IMG/VR virus record: IMGVR_UViG_3300046011_002513
Coordinates: 1 to 25,759 of that record
DNA length: 25,759 nucleotides
Source of the DNA: a virus
Direction: 5' to 3' (one strand)
Shown here: positions 3,649-24,647 of the stretch, one piece after another
Numbering within the stretch: position 1 is the first letter of the stretch
Layout: every line of letters begins with the position of its first letter
Notes under the pieces: generated by a model
What the model was told of the DNA's origin: nothing
The model's input: the letters and a program-made list of their open reading frames with translations, nothing else
Databases searched by the model: none
Translations under genes and position numbers: made by a program

Positions 3649-4254
3649 ATGCCTTTTAACATTAACACATTCAGATCACAAGGTCTTGTCAATGGCGGCG
3701 CTCGTCCGTCATTGTTCGACGTTGAAATTAGTTATAATGGGTTAGAGCAATTGAAGTTTGTCGCAAGGGCTTCACAATTGCCTGCTATGACTATCGGTGA
3801 CATTCAAATTCCTTACTTCGGAAGAAAAATCAAGTTGGCGGGTGACAGAACATTCGCTGACTGGTCTATCACTGTTATGAACGATGAAGATTTCAAAGTT
3901 CGTGCCAGATTCGAAGAATGGTCAAACAGAATTAACACTCTCGTCACAAACGTAAACGCTGCGGGTGCAAGCCCTCTACTTTACAAATCTACTGCGATTG
4001 TAAGACAGTATTCAAAGGCTGGTAAGTCTGGCGAAAATATCGGTAAGCCGATTCGTTCTTATAAATTCATCGGCATTTTCCCGACTCAAATTGACGCAAT
4101 CAATCTTGATTGGGAAACAACAAACCAGATTGAAACTTTCGACGTTACATTCTCATACGACTGGTGGGAACCATACACTGAAGAAAATACCACAGGCGCA
4201 GTCCCATACAATATTAGTCAGCCAGGTCCTGGCTTCTCTACTTCTCGTAGCTAA
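3649..4254 (+). CDS. 19: Tail tube protein (gp19-like)
   Basis: This is the subunit of the inner tail tube through which DNA passes. At 201 residues it is somewhat longer than T4 gp19 (163). Recognisable parts are the N-terminal FNINTFRSQGL followed by ARPSLFDVEI, the segment FVARASQLPAMTIGDIQIPYFGRKIKLAGDR, and FADWSITVMNDEDF with RARFEEW, all typical of the gp19 tube family. It ends with a beta-rich stretch and a Gly/Ser-rich tail. AGGAG at 3638-3642 supports the ATG. It follows the sheath gene and is closed by a strong terminator, so sheath and tube probably form a late transcription unit of their own. Confidence 0.93.
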   Translation: MPFNINTFRSQGLVNGGARPSLFDVEISYNGLEQLKFVARASQLPAMTIGDIQIPYFGRKIKLAGDRTFADWSITVMNDEDFKVRARFEEWSNRINTLVTNVNAAGASPLLYKSTAIVRQYSKAGKSGENIGKPIRSYKFIGIFPTQIDAINLDWETTNQIETFDVTFSYDWWEPYTEENTTGAVPYNISQPGPGFSTSRS

Positions 4255-11796: not shown

Positions 11797-13232
11797 TGAA
11801 AATATTAAAATACAATGACGTTTATATGAAAATTGATTGTGAAGCTGATGTTGCATATGAACTATCAGAGTATTTTACATTTTTCGTCCCAGGATACAAA
11901 TTCATGCCTGCCTACAAAAATAAAATGTGGGACGGCAAAATTCGTTTGTTCAATCCTATAACCAAACTAGTATATGCAGGTGTCATCAATCACATCATAA
12001 AATTTTGTAAAGAAAGAGAATATGATTTAGAAATTTGTGATGATTATACTGCAAATGCGTTTTCGTTAATTGAGTCGAAAGAATTTATAGAATCGTTAGA
12101 GGCACCAAGTCACATTGAAATTCGTGATTATCAAGTGTCTGCGGTTGCTCATTGTATTAGAGATAACAGAGCACTCATGGTGTCGCCGACTGCATCAGGT
12201 AAGTCGTTCATCATTTATTGTTTGATGCGATACTACAATAGAAGAACACTGATCGTAGTTCCTACAACTACACTTGTGCATCAAATGACTAGCGACTTTG
12301 CGTCATATGGGTATGACACAGATTCATATGTGCATAAAATCTTTTCAGGTCAAGAGAAAGACACGGGACAGCAGGTCGTTATCACTACTTGGCAGTCTAT
12401 TTACAAACTTCCGAAGAAATGGTTTGAAAACTTCGACGTTGTATTTGGAGATGAAGCACATACCTTCAAAGCAAAATCATTAACAGACATTATGACTAAA
12501 CTCGAGACATGCAAATATCGTTTCGGGTTCACGGGAACGCTGGATGGAACAGAAACACACAAACTTGTGCTTGAAGGTTTGTTCGGTCCGGTGCGTAATG
12601 TCATCACGACTTCAGAATTAATGGAACAAAAACATGTCAGTGAATTGAGAATCAAAGCATTAGTTTTGAAATATTCTGATGAAGTTCGTAAACTTATGAA
12701 AGGTAAGACATATCAAGAAGAAATGGATTATCTCGTAACCAAAGAAGCGAGAAACAAGTTCATACGAAATCTTGCGTTGTCTCTTGATGGACACACATTA
12801 CTTTTGTTCCAATATGTTGACAAACATGGAAAAGTGTTGTATGATATGTTAAAGACATCGGATAAACCCGTATATTTTGTGCATGGCGGTGTTGATGGTG
12901 AAGAACGTGATAGAATCAGAAAAGAAGTTATCAATTCAGATTCAAGTTTAATCATCGCATCTTACGGAACATTCTCTACGGGTATTAATATACCGAACAT
13001 CGAAAACATAATCTTTGCGAGTCCTTCTAAATCTAGAATCCGCAACCTACAAAGTATCGGTCGTGGTTTAAGGAAATCAGAAGGCAAAGACATGGCGACG
13101 TTGTTTGACATTGCAGATGACTTGACATGGAAATCATATAAAAATCACACAATAGGTCACTTCGTAGAACGTATTAAAATATACAATGACGAAAAATTCA
13201 ACTACAAAATTTATTATGTGGAGTTAAAATGA
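11793..13232 (+). CDS. uvsW: Recombination DNA/RNA helicase UvsW
   Basis: UvsW is a superfamily 2 helicase that migrates branched DNA, unwinds R-loops and helps the switch from origin to recombination-dependent replication. The 479 residues compare with 503 in T4. The N-terminal region (to about residue 100) fits the UvsW DNA-binding part (VPGYKFMPAYKNKMWDGKIR). Helicase motifs are IEIRDYQ (about 108-114), SPTASGKS Walker A (131-138), GDEAH (219-223), FTGTLDG (246-252) and SIGRGLR motif VI (421-427). The start is ATG 11793 or 11796 within the overlap with uvsY. The stop overlaps the next start (ATGA). A sigma-70-type promoter lies inside the gene at 12818-12846. Confidence 0.95.
   Translation: MMKILKYNDVYMKIDCEADVAYELSEYFTFFVPGYKFMPAYKNKMWDGKIRLFNPITKLVYAGVINHIIKFCKEREYDLEICDDYTANAFSLIESKEFIESLEAPSHIEIRDYQVSAVAHCIRDNRALMVSPTASGKSFIIYCLMRYYNRRTLIVVPTTTLVHQMTSDFASYGYDTDSYVHKIFSGQEKDTGQQVVITTWQSIYKLPKKWFENFDVVFGDEAHTFKAKSLTDIMTKLETCKYRFGFTGTLDGTETHKLVLEGLFGPVRNVITTSELMEQKHVSELRIKALVLKYSDEVRKLMKGKTYQEEMDYLVTKEARNKFIRNLALSLDGHTLLLFQYVDKHGKVLYDMLKTSDKPVYFVHGGVDGEERDRIRKEVINSDSSLIIASYGTFSTGINIPNIENIIFASPSKSRIRNLQSIGRGLRKSEGKDMATLFDIADDLTWKSYKNHTIGHFVERIKIYNDEKFNYKIYYVELK
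12818..12846 (+). promoter_or_regulatory. Intragenic sigma-70-type promoter in uvsW
   Basis: TTGACA, 17 bases, then TATGAT: 11 of 12 consensus positions with ideal spacing. It lies in the second half of uvsW, about 380 bases before the next gene, and could feed that gene and gp55. Confidence 0.5.
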
Positions 13233-19097: not shown

Positions 19098-19775
19098 ATG
19101 ATTTCTAAAGTTATCAAAGATCGTATCGAAACTTCTGGCGGACGCTACTTTGCGTCTGACAACATTTCACAGTATATTAATCCAGAAGAACATGATATGT
19201 TGATCGCGGAGTTGACTGATAAGTTCAATAGTGTTCTGGATTCATTGATTATTGATCGTGCAAAGGATCCGAACTCACAAGGGACCGGTAAACGTCTAGC
19301 AAAGATGTATGTCAACGAAATCATGGCGGGTCGATATGAACCGCAACCTGATGTTGCAGCATTTCCTAACGATGGTTACAACAAATATACAGGTATGCTT
19401 GTTGTTCGTTCTGAAATTAAATCTCTTTGTTCACATCATCACCAACCTGTCAAGGGTGTTGCATATATCGGAGTCATTCCAGGTGAAAAAGTCATCGGTT
19501 TGTCTAAATACAGTAGAATCGCACAATGGTGTGCAAGACGAGGAACCTTGCAGGAAGAACTGTGCAACGAAGTCGCCAACCAAATTCGTAAAGCAACTAG
19601 CAGTGATGACATTGGTGTTTATATCGCTGCTACTCATGGATGCTGCGAAAATCGCGGTATTATGGCACACTCTTCATTGACGCAAACGACTGTATTACAT
19701 GGTGCGTTCCATCAACCTGATGTGAAAAAAGAATTCTTCGATTCTATAAAACTACAAGAAATGCATATCAAGTAA
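19098..19775 (+). CDS. folE: GTP cyclohydrolase I (FolE)
   Basis: FolE opens GTP to dihydroneopterin triphosphate, the first step of both folate and 7-deazaguanine synthesis; here it feeds QueD. The 225 residues match the family. Zinc ligands are visible as SLCSHHHQP (Cys111 and His114) and ATHGCCENRG (Cys182, with His180), and GLSKYSRI and TQTTVLHGAF are conserved. ATG 19098 is used because homology begins shortly after it (VIKDRIETSGGRYF); it starts one base after the queE stop with GGGGA upstream. The end overlaps the convergent homing endonuclease gene by 8 bases. Confidence 0.95.
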   Translation: MISKVIKDRIETSGGRYFASDNISQYINPEEHDMLIAELTDKFNSVLDSLIIDRAKDPNSQGTGKRLAKMYVNEIMAGRYEPQPDVAAFPNDGYNKYTGMLVVRSEIKSLCSHHHQPVKGVAYIGVIPGEKVIGLSKYSRIAQWCARRGTLQEELCNEVANQIRKATSSDDIGVYIAATHGCCENRGIMAHSSLTQTTVLHGAFHQPDVKKEFFDSIKLQEMHIK

Positions 19776-20316
19776 TTTTATACCAGTCGATATATTTTTC
19801 ACTGTTTACTTTTTTACTGACTGAAGCTATTGAACATTTCAAATGTGTTGAAGCTTCAGTCAGTGATGTAAAAATTCCGTGAGGTGTGTTTATTTTTCTT
19901 GCGGTATTTTTACCCACATTAGTATTGTCTCTTTTGCAAGCAGCAATTTTCAGGTTTAATATTTGAGCAGGTGTCCTTTTTTTGCCTCTGTTTTTTGAAA
20001 CTCTTTTTTCTATAGTTTCTTTAGATTGTTTAGTTCCTATAGCGCCGCCATCTAATGCAGTTTCAATTATTTCATTTGCCCATGTTTTTGATTTCACAAT
20101 ATCATTCTCAATAGAGAAATTTATTGCAAAACCACTTGCTTCAACAATACCGTCAAAATAAAAAACTTGACAATTAACAGGATATGAATTATGTTTTTTC
20201 AGATGATTCTTCCAATGTCTTCCAGATCCTTTATATTTGAGAGGATCTCTTATTGTTTTTCCGAAATATTTCAGATTACAATGAGAACATTGTTTGATAT
20301 AAAGATAAATAGTCAT
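19768..20316 (-). CDS. GIY-YIG homing endonuclease, free-standing
   Basis: This 182-residue protein is read against all its neighbours. The N-terminus IYLYIKQ...LKYFGKT...KYKGSGRHWKNHLKKH is a phage-type GIY-YIG nuclease start (YLY for GIY, YFG for YIG; Arg in GSGRHW). Residue Glu in FSIENDIV is a candidate for the metal-binding Glu. The C-terminus TPHGIFTSLTEASTHLKCS...W matches NUMOD1-like DNA-binding repeats of homing nucleases, and a basic linker with KQSKETIEKR and NRGKKRT lies between. AGGAGG on the - strand (20322-20327) precedes the ATG. Such genes spread by cutting phage genomes that lack them. It splits the modification cluster between folE and dpdA. Confidence 0.88.
   Translation of the reverse strand: MTIYLYIKQCSHCNLKYFGKTIRDPLKYKGSGRHWKNHLKKHNSYPVNCQVFYFDGIVEASGFAINFSIENDIVKSKTWANEIIETALDGGAIGTKQSKETIEKRVSKNRGKKRTPAQILNLKIAACKRDNTNVGKNTARKINTPHGIFTSLTEASTHLKCSIASVSKKVNSEKYIDWYKIT
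19816..19864. repeat. 13-base perfect inverted repeat inside the homing endonuclease gene
   Basis: ACTGACTGAAGCT (19816-19828) is repeated in inverse as AGCTTCAGTCAGT (19852-19864). Between them ACATTT and AAATGT form a second, inner stem around one base. The unit would fold into a 49-base hairpin in RNA of either strand. No T-run follows it on either strand, so it is not a plain terminator. Confidence 0.7.
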
Positions 20317-20398: not shown

Positions 20399-21754
20399 AT
20401 GGTAGATAATCACAAAAAACTTGACTATGTGATCTCGGCATGTGGAATGATGGGTGTGTTTACTCCTGATCACAATGCTAGTTGGTTTCCTGTTTACAAA
20501 GAAGCGACCGTGTCTCTGATGCGGTCGTTGAAATCAAGTATCGCAGAAACATGTGTTAATACTGAACCGCTTGTTTCTGTTCTATACAATGCATATACAG
20601 AAAAGAATCATGTCAGTGAATTTCAACGTCTGAATAACCTGAGTGCAGATTCTGTATATGCGGATTCGGGTGGGTTGCAGATTGTCACAGCAGGCAAATC
20701 AATCACACCTGAAATGAAGAATGAGATCTATAAAACGCAAACGTATTCTGATTATGCGATGTGCTTTGACGTTATTCCGCTGTCGTCTGTGTCATTGACC
20801 AGAACACGCAATGAGCGTTCTAATATCGGGAACAAAATTTTCCACAGTGAACGTCTCGGTGAAAGTGCATATGCGACGGGGGAGAACGTCAAAACGCAAG
20901 CGACTTATTTCAGAAAAGGTAGCGCAAAAACTAAAGTGATCATCATCGTTCAAGGTAATTCAGCAGACGATATGGTTGAGTTTTTTAAAGGTGTAACTGC
21001 AAGATTGGAGCCCGAGGACTATGAAAACATCGGAGGCATGGCTATCGCTGATACCTGCATCGGCAACGGAGAATTGGAATCAATTGAAATGCTCCGTGCA
21101 GCAAAACGAATTTCTGAGTTCTGTCATCCGAACATACGGAGACACCTCCACGTTCTTGGTGTTGGTTCTATTAGCAGAATGCGACCTATTCTATACCTAT
21201 TGAAATCAGGGTATCTGAATAAGTTTGAACGTGTATCGTATGACTCGAGTTCACACACTTCGACTTTCCAGTATGGATTGTTGAAACTCAATGGCACATG
21301 CAAATCTATCGGTTCGTATAGAACACCTGCTGTTGACAAACATTTCCGTAACGTGTATAATCTTTTCAATGAAACGTTTTCTCCGTTGGTGACAGAAGAT
21401 CGTTGGATGGAATTGGTATTTGGCGACGGCACGGGTGATTGGAAATTCTCTACAGTCAAAAATAGATTGTTGACCAATCCCAATGCAAACGAAATTGCAG
21501 CGGGTATGTTGTGCAACGCAGCACATACTTATTTCCAAATCCACAACTTCGTCACTAATCTCGACAAAGTATCAGGGCACCAATTGGGTGCAGTTAAGAA
21601 TTCTGATCTGAGTGAGATTGCGACAAATCGTCTACTAGGTGTCACCAATGAGGATCAAATGGATGAATGGTTGAGTAACAACCGAACATTGATCAGGTCA
21701 AAACGTATCAGTAGAGATGAAAATATGATTAGTATTGAGGACTTTTTTGCATGA
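20399..21754 (+). CDS. dpdA: DNA 7-deazaguanine transglycosylase (DpdA-like, TGT family)
   Basis: DpdA exchanges guanine in DNA for a 7-deazaguanine base, as its relative TGT does in tRNA. The 451-residue protein keeps TGT-like landmarks: YADSGGLQ (catalytic Asp about residue 89), CFDVIP, IVQGNS, GGMAIAD, LHVLGVGS and, for the nucleophile region, RVSYDSSSH (Asp about 282). The CxCxxC zinc motif of bacterial TGT is absent, which points to DpdA and not tRNA TGT. Its neighbours make preQ0/preQ1, which supports this. The start is uncertain: ATG 20399 has GGTGG 10 bases upstream, but ATG 20378/20381 or GTG 20360 are possible. The stop overlaps the queF start (ATGA). A perfect sigma-70-type promoter lies inside. 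Confidence 0.88.
   Translation: MVDNHKKLDYVISACGMMGVFTPDHNASWFPVYKEATVSLMRSLKSSIAETCVNTEPLVSVLYNAYTEKNHVSEFQRLNNLSADSVYADSGGLQIVTAGKSITPEMKNEIYKTQTYSDYAMCFDVIPLSSVSLTRTRNERSNIGNKIFHSERLGESAYATGENVKTQATYFRKGSAKTKVIIIVQGNSADDMVEFFKGVTARLEPEDYENIGGMAIADTCIGNGELESIEMLRAAKRISEFCHPNIRRHLHVLGVGSISRMRPILYLLKSGYLNKFERVSYDSSSHTSTFQYGLLKLNGTCKSIGSYRTPAVDKHFRNVYNLFNETFSPLVTEDRWMELVFGDGTGDWKFSTVKNRLLTNPNANEIAAGMLCNAAHTYFQIHNFVTNLDKVSGHQLGAVKNSDLSEIATNRLLGVTNEDQMDEWLSNNRTLIRSKRISRDENMISIEDFFA
21333..21361 (+). promoter_or_regulatory. Perfect sigma-70 consensus inside dpdA
   Basis: TTGACA (21333-21338), exactly 17 bases, TATAAT (21356-21361): 12 of 12 positions with ideal spacing. It reads toward queF, whose ATG lies 389 bases after the -10 box. 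Confidence 0.65.
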
Positions 21755-22683
21755 ATAAAATTGAAGAAATCGCGTCTAAACACCTGGGCAAAGCAGGTGA
21801 CGGATCAGTTGTCAAACCTTATGTCACACCAGATCAAGTTGACGCATCGCTATTGGTTGCAATTCCGCGCCAGTTAAACAGAACGCATTACGCTATTGAT
21901 AGTGAAACGCAAATGTTTGGATATGACACATGGAACGCATATGAAGTGTCTTTCCTGCTCGACAATGGTTTCCCAGTAAACTGTGTTGCTAAAATAATTT
22001 ACAGTTCGGATTCAGAATTTATCGTTGAATCTAAGTCACTAAAGTTGTATCTCAACTCATATAACATGCAGAAAATGGGTGCGACTTTTGTTGACGCATA
22101 CAATAATGCCACAAGTCAAATGCATGAAGATTTGAGTAATGCACTAGGAACAACTGTATCAGTTGACCTGTTTATTGAACAAGATCTCAACACGTTAGTG
22201 CCTCACAGCGCATTCCGTGGAACGTATCCGTTGCTCGAGGATATTGTTGATGTTGACAATATGACATTTCCGTGGTATAATGAAAATCCTGACATTTTGC
22301 AAGTCGATGATGAAAACAAAAATGTCATTATGAACTTCAAATCTGTTTCACTGCGTTCTAATTGCCGTGTAACAAATCAACCTGACTGGGGTGATGTTTA
22401 CGTTTCTATCGAAGGTGACAATCTGCCGACATACGAATCTATGTTGCAGTATATTGTTTCTATGAGAAAGGAAAATCATTTCCATGAAGAAATTTGTGAA
22501 TGTATCTACAAACGTCTACTCGATAAATTCCAACCACGTAAACTTCTAGTCGGTTGTCTGTATACTAGACGCGGTGGTATTGATATTAACCCAGTTCGTG
22601 CAACTGATATTGACACATTAATCAATCATTCGTATGCACTGATGACTCCTGGAATCCTAGTCAACAAAACAATGAGACAATAA
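21751..22683 (+). CDS. queF: NADPH-dependent preQ0 reductase (QueF), two-module type
   Basis: QueF reduces the nitrile of preQ0 to the aminomethyl of preQ1. The 310 residues fit the two-module E. coli-like form (282). The QueF motif ESKSLKLYLNSYN (residues 93-105) is intact; this NADPH-binding motif is lacking in the archaeal amidino-transferring QueF-L, so reduction is predicted. The catalytic core SNCRVTNQPDWG gives Cys205 and Asp212, and HFHEEICE gives His245 and Glu246. It overlaps dpdA by 4 bases, and queC starts after one base. A sigma-70 consensus site lies inside. Its presence with DpdA suggests preQ1 in the phage DNA. Confidence 0.93.
   Translation: MNKIEEIASKHLGKAGDGSVVKPYVTPDQVDASLLVAIPRQLNRTHYAIDSETQMFGYDTWNAYEVSFLLDNGFPVNCVAKIIYSSDSEFIVESKSLKLYLNSYNMQKMGATFVDAYNNATSQMHEDLSNALGTTVSVDLFIEQDLNTLVPHSAFRGTYPLLEDIVDVDNMTFPWYNENPDILQVDDENKNVIMNFKSVSLRSNCRVTNQPDWGDVYVSIEGDNLPTYESMLQYIVSMRKENHFHEEICECIYKRLLDKFQPRKLLVGCLYTRRGGIDINPVRATDIDTLINHSYALMTPGILVNKTMRQ
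22253..22281 (+). promoter_or_regulatory. Perfect sigma-70 consensus with extended -10 inside queF
   Basis: TTGACA (22253-22258), exactly 17 bases, TATAAT (22276-22281), plus TG at 22273-22274 for an extended -10. This is the best promoter-like sequence found in the window. It reads toward queC, 403 bases after the -10 box. Confidence 0.68.
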
Positions 22684-22684
22684 T

Positions 22685-23425
22685 ATGAATCTTAGTGTAG
22701 CTCTATATAATCTCCCTCAAACAGATAAAAAGGTTCTTGCCGTCCTTTCGGGCGGTTTGGATTCGTCAGTCATGACGATGTTGCTTGTGCAAAAGTATGG
22801 CAAAGAAAATGTTGTTGCTCTGTCATACGACTACGGGCAGAAACAAAAAGAAGAACTGCAACGCGCTAAAGTCCTGTGTGGAATCCTCGGCGTCAGTCAT
22901 AAAATTCTTGATCTCAACATCCTCGGTGAAATCGCAAAACCTATCTCCGCGAATATCGGCGGGACTGATGTTGCGATGCCTACAATTAAAGACGTTCTAG
23001 GTGATCCGCAACCTAAGACGTATGTTCCTTTCCGTAACATGATTTTGTTGTCTTTGACTATGGCACAGGCAGAAGCATCAGACGCTTCACATGTGTTCAC
23101 AGGTTTACAAGTTCATGATGAATATGGTTATTGGGACACGACACAGAAATTTGTCGATAGTATGAATGCTGTTGCTGCACAGAACAGAACACACAAAGTT
23201 ACTATCTTGGCGCCGTTTTCGATGCTATCAAAATATCATGAGATTGAGATATGCAAAGAACTTGACAAAGTGCATTTGTTGAAATATACTTTGACTTGTT
23301 ACGATCCTGATCTGCGAGGACGCTCTTGTGGCAAATGTCCTTCATGTGCTGAGCGTATTCAGAATTTCATGAAGGCAGGAATTGCAGACCCGATTGAGTA
23401 TCAAACACATATTCCTTGGAAATGA
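22685..23425 (+). CDS. queC: 7-cyano-7-deazaguanine (preQ0) synthase (QueC)
   Basis: QueC uses ATP and ammonia to turn 7-carboxy-7-deazaguanine into preQ0. The 246-residue protein has the ATP pyrophosphatase loop SGGLDSS (22-28), YDYGQKQKEE, YVPFRNMILLSLTMAQAE, and the zinc site Cys205-X9-Cys215-X2-Cys218-X2-Cys221 in the C-terminus, all as in known QueC. It begins one base after queF and so is probably co-translated. Unlike the archaeal and phage 9g Gat-QueC it carries no fused amidotransferase; a separate class II amidotransferase lies two genes on. A sigma-70-like site inside it (23262-23290) faces the transporter gene. Confidence 0.96.
   Translation: MNLSVALYNLPQTDKKVLAVLSGGLDSSVMTMLLVQKYGKENVVALSYDYGQKQKEELQRAKVLCGILGVSHKILDLNILGEIAKPISANIGGTDVAMPTIKDVLGDPQPKTYVPFRNMILLSLTMAQAEASDASHVFTGLQVHDEYGYWDTTQKFVDSMNAVAAQNRTHKVTILAPFSMLSKYHEIEICKELDKVHLLKYTLTCYDPDLRGRSCGKCPSCAERIQNFMKAGIADPIEYQTHIPWK
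23262..23290 (+). promoter_or_regulatory. Intragenic sigma-70-type promoter in queC
   Basis: TTGACA, 17 bases, TATACT: 11 of 12 positions. It lies 146 bases before the transporter ATG. Confidence 0.5.
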
Positions 23426-23436
23426 TTGGAGTTAAT

Positions 23437-24006
23437 ATGCTACAAAATATCAATAGAACATTGGTCGCGCAACTTTTAGCGTTCCATGTGTTGATCATCG
23501 CTACCTCTAACTATCTTGTGCAGTTTCCTGTAACAGTTGCAGGCATCTCGTTCACTTGGGCAATGTTTACATTCCCGTTAGTTATCCTTGCAACTGATCT
23601 CACAGTTCGACTTTCAAACAAATACAATGCGAGATGGATCGTAGGACTTGCCTACATTCCTGCAATCATAATCAGCACATTGTTGGCGGATTGGCGTATC
23701 GGTGTCGCGTCAGGCACTGCATATCTTATCAGTCAATTGCTTGACGTTTCAGTGTTCAACCGTATTCGTGAAGCGTTCAAAACTTGGTGGTATGCACCTG
23801 TGCTTGCGACGTTTGTTTCTAATATTATTGACACTTACACATTCTTCGGTGTTGCGTTCTATAATTCTGCAGACCCGTTCATGGCAGAAAATTGGTTCCA
23901 TATCGCAAGCGTTGATCTAGTATTCAAGATGATCGTCAGTTACCTTGTTATCATACCTCTGTATGGCATCGTGCTTAAGTATGCACTAGGAAAGGTTCAA
24001 GATTAA
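23437..24006 (+). CDS. Queuosine precursor transporter (YhhQ/QueT-type membrane protein)
   Basis: This family (DUF165/VUT) moves preQ0 or preQ1 across the inner membrane. The 189-residue protein has about six hydrophobic segments (roughly residues 9-27, 38-57, 66-84, 87-102, 117-140, 159-181). It carries family markers PLVILATDLTVRL (48-60) and QLLDVSVFNRIRE (100-112). ATG 23437 is chosen because TGGAG (23427-23431) is 5 bases upstream; in-frame ATG 23422 overlapping queC is possible. The stop overlaps the amidotransferase start (TAATG). With a full synthesis route already present, the phage may also collect precursor from outside. Confidence 0.88.
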   Translation: MLQNINRTLVAQLLAFHVLIIATSNYLVQFPVTVAGISFTWAMFTFPLVILATDLTVRLSNKYNARWIVGLAYIPAIIISTLLADWRIGVASGTAYLISQLLDVSVFNRIREAFKTWWYAPVLATFVSNIIDTYTFFGVAFYNSADPFMAENWFHIASVDLVFKMIVSYLVIIPLYGIVLKYALGKVQD

Positions 24007-24647
24007 TGTGTTCAATTATCGGTTCATTCGATAAGGACAAGGTGATTGCCCTCTGTGAGTTAAATACCTACAGAGGGCAACATTCACATTCTATCTCTTA
24101 TGCATCTGTAGATGGTGTGTATTACACACAAAAGAATTTTGGTCCTATCAACTATGATGCGATTGACAACGATGATGGCGACTACATCATAGTTCATATG
24201 CAAGCGCCGACAACTGACAATAAAAATGCCGATTGCATCCATCCCGCGATCTTTCGAGATTCAGGTGATTTGCTATGGCATAATGGAATCATCAAAGAAA
24301 AAGAAGTTGAACGTCTGCGTGAAAAATATCAGTTAACCCCAACTTGGGACACATATATACTACTGCATCACCTGACAATAGGTGGTTCGCTAAGCGATAT
24401 TGACGGGACGTTCTCTTGTTTGTGGTATGATAATTCTAGCAATTATGGTCGTTATGGGTTGAAACTATTTCGTAATGAAATCAGTCCTATGTTCATAGAC
24501 TCTAAAAGCAATATTTCTTCCACAAAATTTGAAGGCTCTGTCCCGACCGAACCCAATACTGTGTTCGGGTTCGACCCGTTCAAGAATGCATTACACCCGC
24601 ATTTCACATTTGATACAAAAGAAAACCCTTATTATTTTGGTGAGTAA
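24006..24647 (+). CDS. Class II glutamine amidotransferase domain protein
   Basis: An Ntn-type glutaminase frees ammonia from glutamine with the N-terminal Cys. The 213-residue protein starts MCSIIGSF, with Cys2 as nucleophile after Met removal. NTYRGQHS gives the Arg of the glutamine site, HMQAPT replaces the usual HxRxAT, and LLWHNGII (Asn93, Gly94) is the oxyanion/glutamine loop. There is no synthase domain, so an ammonia acceptor must lie in another protein. Its place after queF-queC-transporter suggests work on a 7-deazaguanine, in analogy to the Gat part of Gat-QueC, which makes archaeosine (G+) in phage 9g. The true substrate is unknown. TAATG overlaps join it to both neighbours. Confidence 0.8.
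   Translation: MCSIIGSFDKDKVIALCELNTYRGQHSHSISYASVDGVYYTQKNFGPINYDAIDNDDGDYIIVHMQAPTTDNKNADCIHPAIFRDSGDLLWHNGIIKEKEVERLREKYQLTPTWDTYILLHHLTIGGSLSDIDGTFSCLWYDNSSNYGRYGLKLFRNEISPMFIDSKSNISSTKFEGSVPTEPNTVFGFDPFKNALHPHFTFDTKENPYYFGE

Follow-up and report, generated by a model that had tools for sequence, protein, structure and literature searches.

Does the queF gene of a T4-like phage carry a working promoter within its own codons? The window, which is the whole stretch of DNA analysed here, is a viral fragment of 25,759 bases. A consensus search of the window located TTGACA-N17-TATAAT, matching at all twelve positions, at 22253–22281 on the plus strand inside queF. The extended −10 element TGn, here TGG, lies immediately 5′ of the −10 hexamer, and all three sigma-70 elements are present. 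The original prediction of a perfect extended −10 sigma-70 promoter sequence inside queF was correct in both sequence and position. The consensus used for scoring is that of textbook sigma-70. We propose, with a probability of about 0.6, that the site is an internal promoter of the host-sigma-70 type, which would feed queC, a transporter gene and an amidotransferase-like gene.

The elements of the putative promoter are formed by codons 168–177 of the 310-residue QueF, between its QueF_N and QueF domains. The −35 element TTGACA (22253–22258) is an exact match encoded by GTT GAC A.. (V168-D169-N170), and is the same in the nearest relative, L004 of record G001. The 17-bp spacer (22259–22275) has the same length in L004, in spite of three amino-acid changes (N-M-T to K-I-S), and ends with the TGG (22273–22275) of a tryptophan codon. 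The −10 element TATAAT (22276–22281), also exact, is encoded by TAT AAT (Y176-N177), and L004 retains all twelve bases. Transcription would be expected to start at 22288, about 7 nucleotides downstream of the −10 element (5–9 nucleotides in sigma-70 promoters), which fits the start near 22288 that had been predicted; the base there is C, not the preferred purine. No A/T-rich UP element is present upstream of the −35 element, where the DNA reads CTCGAGGATATTGTTGATG, unlike in the intergenic promoters of the phage family, which are A/T-rich in this region. The intergenic promoters are located 10–59 bp from a start codon, whereas the distance from the queF site to the start of queC is 404 bp.

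The gene that contains the site (21751–22683, plus strand) encodes a reductase of the bimodular NADPH-dependent 7-cyano-7-deazaguanine type, with the Pfam domains PF14819 (QueF_N, residues 28–140) and PF14489 (QueF, residues 211–284) both above the cut-off. The family is named 'GTP cyclohydrolase' in PHROGs (phrog_5949), at odds with both Pfam QueF domains, and the name has been copied in several phage records. The first complete gene 3′ of the site is queC (22685–23425, plus strand, PF06508), followed by a Vut_1/YhhQ-type transporter gene (23437–24006, plus strand, PF02592). These two downstream labels agree with Pfam. The third gene, said to encode an amidotransferase (24006–24647, plus strand), has no Pfam match and belongs to PHROG 12378 of unknown function; therefore, its class II amidotransferase-like label reflects the appearance of the sequence only, which includes an MCSIIG start. 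Codons 13–27 of this gene form a strong hairpin (24042–24086, z −5.7 relative to synonymous recoding). Relatives have a hairpin at the corresponding position, which in L004 shows a compensatory C-G to A-T change; P is below 0.05 in 14 of 35 homologs, with at least two pairing registers, and there is no Rfam match.

The setting resembles the phage 7-deazaguanine DNA-modification clusters described previously (PMC6884629), since folE, queD, queE, queC, queF and a TGT/DpdA-like gene occur together. That paper does not mention promoters, and the likeness is one of setting, not of site. A GIY-YIG-like endonuclease gene (19768–20316, minus strand), with a weak match to the I-TevI DNA-binding domain under the Pfam cut-off, separates folE from the TGT/DpdA-like gene as an insertion. 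The insertion is not supported as a reason for the queF promoter, because L004 lacks it, with folE adjoining the TGT-like gene, and yet has the site. T4-type genes of the window encode a gp55-like late sigma factor, SbcC/D-like subunits and an UvsW-like helicase. The gp23-type capsid protein is nearest to those of Stenotrophomonas phage DLP6 (73%) and Sinorhizobium phage phiM12 (66%).

How surprising is an exact match within a gene? The original prediction counted two exact matches at spacing 17, and both exist, at 22253–22281 and 21333–21361 on the plus strand. Its estimate of fewer than 0.01 expected exact matches per strand holds for independent bases. The site is coding DNA, however, and the estimate overstated the rarity because this constraint was ignored. 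When each protein was kept fixed and its codons were permuted in 150 shuffles, 0.16 exact matches were expected on the plus strand, and two or more occurred in 1.3% of the shuffles. Given the peptide VDN......YN and the codon usage of the window, a perfect match at the queF site has a probability of 0.067, and the tryptophan codon brings the TGG at no further cost; taken by itself, the exact match is therefore evidence of moderate strength. The excess of promoter-like matches over chance in the window is nevertheless real: with at most one mismatch, the plus strand contains five sites with spacing 17, compared with about 0.3 for other spacings; with at most two mismatches, it contains 14 sites at spacing 17, compared with 6.1 (maximum 11) in the synonymous null.

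The second exact match, in the TGT/DpdA-like gene, lacks a correctly placed TGn, and in the relative its −35 element is kept while the −10 reads TATCGT. A site matching at 11 of 12 positions in the UvsW-like helicase gene (12817–12845, plus strand) is retained at 11 of 12 in G001. A third 12 of 12 match, with a 16-bp spacer, lies on the minus strand (13683–13656) and is antisense to the 5′ end of the gp55-like gene; it has no minus-strand gene downstream, and its −35 element is not intact in L004.

The main alternative is that the match is a coincidence of coding, with no transcriptional role. The conserved QueF motif V-[DE]-x6-Y-N-E, written in the codons that this phage prefers for V-D and Y-N, would spell TTGAC and TATAAT, and the tryptophan would supply TGG. 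Most of 80 homologs conserve the motif, and TATAAT is the commonest spelling of YN (357 of 622). In 50 nonredundant queF homologs that encode YN at this position, the spelling TATAAT occurs 27 times, compared with 28 expected, which speaks against family-wide selection on the −10 element, and only three of the 50 contain TTGACA. Family-wide conservation of a queF promoter is thus rejected. The locus L012, from a different lineage, has a 12 of 12 match at the same place in queF without TGn, which coding preference can explain. The cultured phage pf16, which has the best-matching TGT-like gene and a related queF, is uninformative about the site because it reads DFNENP there and lacks the YNE motif.

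The comparison with L004, the QueF of which is 65% identical to that of the window, is harder to reconcile with a coding coincidence. All twelve promoter bases and the TGG are kept, even though codons for unchanged amino acids are only 47–49% identical between the window and the relative as a background. In the core of the site, all six scorable codons are identical to those of L004 (p ~0.014, amino-acid-specific rates). The identity extends over a block at 22249–22296 (plus strand), in which each of the 12 synonymous-capable codons with an unchanged amino acid is the same in L004. This is the longest such run among 4,566 shared codons; the second longest between the window and G001 overlaps the 5′ arm of the 24042–24086 hairpin. 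The probability of the 12-codon run at the site, scored from 22249 to 22294, is about 3e-4, its extent having been set post hoc. A run of at least 12 would arise somewhere among the 2,234 codons first tested with a probability of 0.14, and what gives the observation weight is therefore that the run falls on a site singled out in advance. Among the sites of the window with at most two mismatches, five of nine at spacing 17 were retained, compared with five of 69 at other spacings (Fisher p 0.001), a difference from the decoys that a coding coincidence leaves unexplained, as it does the 12-codon identity. A pattern search for FPWYNENP among IMG/VR contigs returned only two carriers, both already known, and the conservation of the queF site is consequently known from one comparison. 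A scan with the TGT-like protein for further close relatives found only a near-identical contig.

The third observation that a coding coincidence does not explain is an excess centred on spacing 17 across the related phages. With at most one mismatch, 59 related contigs contain 94 coding-strand sites with spacing 17, about eight at other spacings and four on the opposite strand. Inside open reading frames, there are 68 sites at spacing 17, compared with 17.3 (s.d. 3.6, maximum 26) in the synonymous-codon null, and more than 180 bp from the end of the reading frame there are 33, compared with 10.8. Most other spacings inside reading frames fit the synonymous null, and spacing 23 is mildly raised (22 compared with 10.7). 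Codon periodicity was rejected as an explanation, since the remaining in-frame spacings show no increase of comparable size. In a set of 25 loci less than 70% identical, from which the window and L004 were left out, 12 mid-gene sites at spacing 17 were found, compared with 5.6 expected; none of 150 shuffles gave so many. Mild increases are also present at spacings 18 and 23 in this set. Therefore, roughly half of the near-perfect mid-gene sites of the relatives exceed codon chance, and about half are expected from codons, as a coding coincidence would have it. The whole records G001, G002, G005 and G007 contain 9, 11, 12 and 12 sites at spacing 17 and 0, 4, 1 and 3 at spacing 20, respectively, and 42 of the 44 spacing-17 sites are on the main strand of their record. 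Some of the family sites are intergenic, 10–59 bp before a gene start, as expected of real promoters, and others recur at fixed positions within genes. A promoter-like TTGAC(A/T)-N17 site close to the 3′ end of a gp46-like gene, some 85 bp upstream of the following gene, is shared by 13 contigs (L004, at position 3873, and homologous places in 12 others) and is degraded in the window. Taking both sides together, we consider a mere coding coincidence at the queF site unlikely, though it deserves serious attention.

Constraint on the DNA could also have a different origin. A −10-like element may cause a sigma-dependent pause of a polymerase that is already transcribing, or the block may be constrained at the DNA level in some other way. 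Froula and Francino (PMC1939733) described an excess of −10 motifs within the coding sequence of some genomes and suggested pausing as the reason; the conserved block also runs beyond the −10 element, to 22296. However, pausing does not need a consensus −35 element at 17 bp, whereas the family enrichment requires both hexamers at exactly this distance. No RNA hairpin was detected at the queF site (z +0.76), and an Rfam search returned no match there or anywhere else in the window, which argues against such constraints; a known RNA element or preQ1 riboswitch was rejected for lack of an Rfam match. We regard pausing or another DNA-level constraint as very improbable. Even less credible is the idea that the internal transcript yields a C-terminal piece of QueF as a protein of its own. 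In its favour, the site falls between the QueF_N and QueF domains and in-frame ATG codons follow, for example at 22330; against it, no clear ribosome-binding site precedes these ATGs, and the piece would be devoid of the N-terminal half carrying the ESKS motif.

The preferred reading of the site as an extended −10 promoter thus draws on the spacing-17 enrichment in the family and on the retention in L004, and does not extend to queF genes family-wide. Because the exact match persists in L004, although silent codon choices mostly differ there, the site is probably a working extra promoter. Its type is ordinary and well known, and the queF site is probably a further example. Like the extended −10 promoters of sigma-70 (RpoD), it has TTGACA and TATAAT, set 17 bp apart and so within the 16–18 bp of this class, with TGn at −15 to −13. 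It differs from typical sigma-70 promoters in its position in the middle of a gene, 404 bp from the next start codon, and in having no obvious UP element. The early promoters of T4 and of five T4-like phages have a strong −35 element, TGn and a −10 element, which are recognised by the unmodified host polymerase; their −35 is GTTTAC-like, they have UP elements, and they are usually located upstream of genes (PMC2988021; PMC1524935). The queF site shares this −35/TGn/−10 architecture, in a phage that has T4-type late genes, but has a plain TTGACA, is inside a gene and lacks the A/T-rich UP element. In T4-type middle promoters, a MotA box at −30 replaces the −35 element, whereas the queF site has a consensus −35. 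A T4-type late promoter is excluded, since the site reads TATAATGA, not TATAAATA, at −10; the late motif TATAAATA precedes three structural genes, at 1268, 8294 and 9307. The queF site was not found reported in our literature searches.

Based on these comparisons, a mechanism can be proposed. The consensus −35, TGn and −10 elements written into the codons of queF would make up a promoter inside the gene, of the class served by the host sigma-70 (RpoD). Early in infection, unmodified host RNA polymerase, equipped with a factor of the sigma-70 type, would recognise each of the three. The RNA would begin near 22288 and include the 3′ part of queF, queC, the YhhQ-type transporter gene and the amidotransferase-like gene, adding message on top of read-through from upstream. 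Binding, transcription, its timing and an effect on 7-deazaguanine synthesis are what we infer from this arrangement. More tentatively, this clade of T4-like phages may possess sigma-70 promoters distributed in the codons of non-structural genes, with a strict 17-bp spacer, each boosting the genes downstream of it and the queF site among them; silent codon choice would then be partly shaped by promoters.

If the proposed promoter functions, queC, the precursor transporter and the amidotransferase-like gene would have an early promoter of their own, and the late steps of 7-deazaguanine supply would be tunable separately from the upstream genes. The spacing-specific excess inside genes suggests that codon choice in these phages also encodes promoters. 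Promoters within codons would be overlooked by recoding or gene-annotation work.
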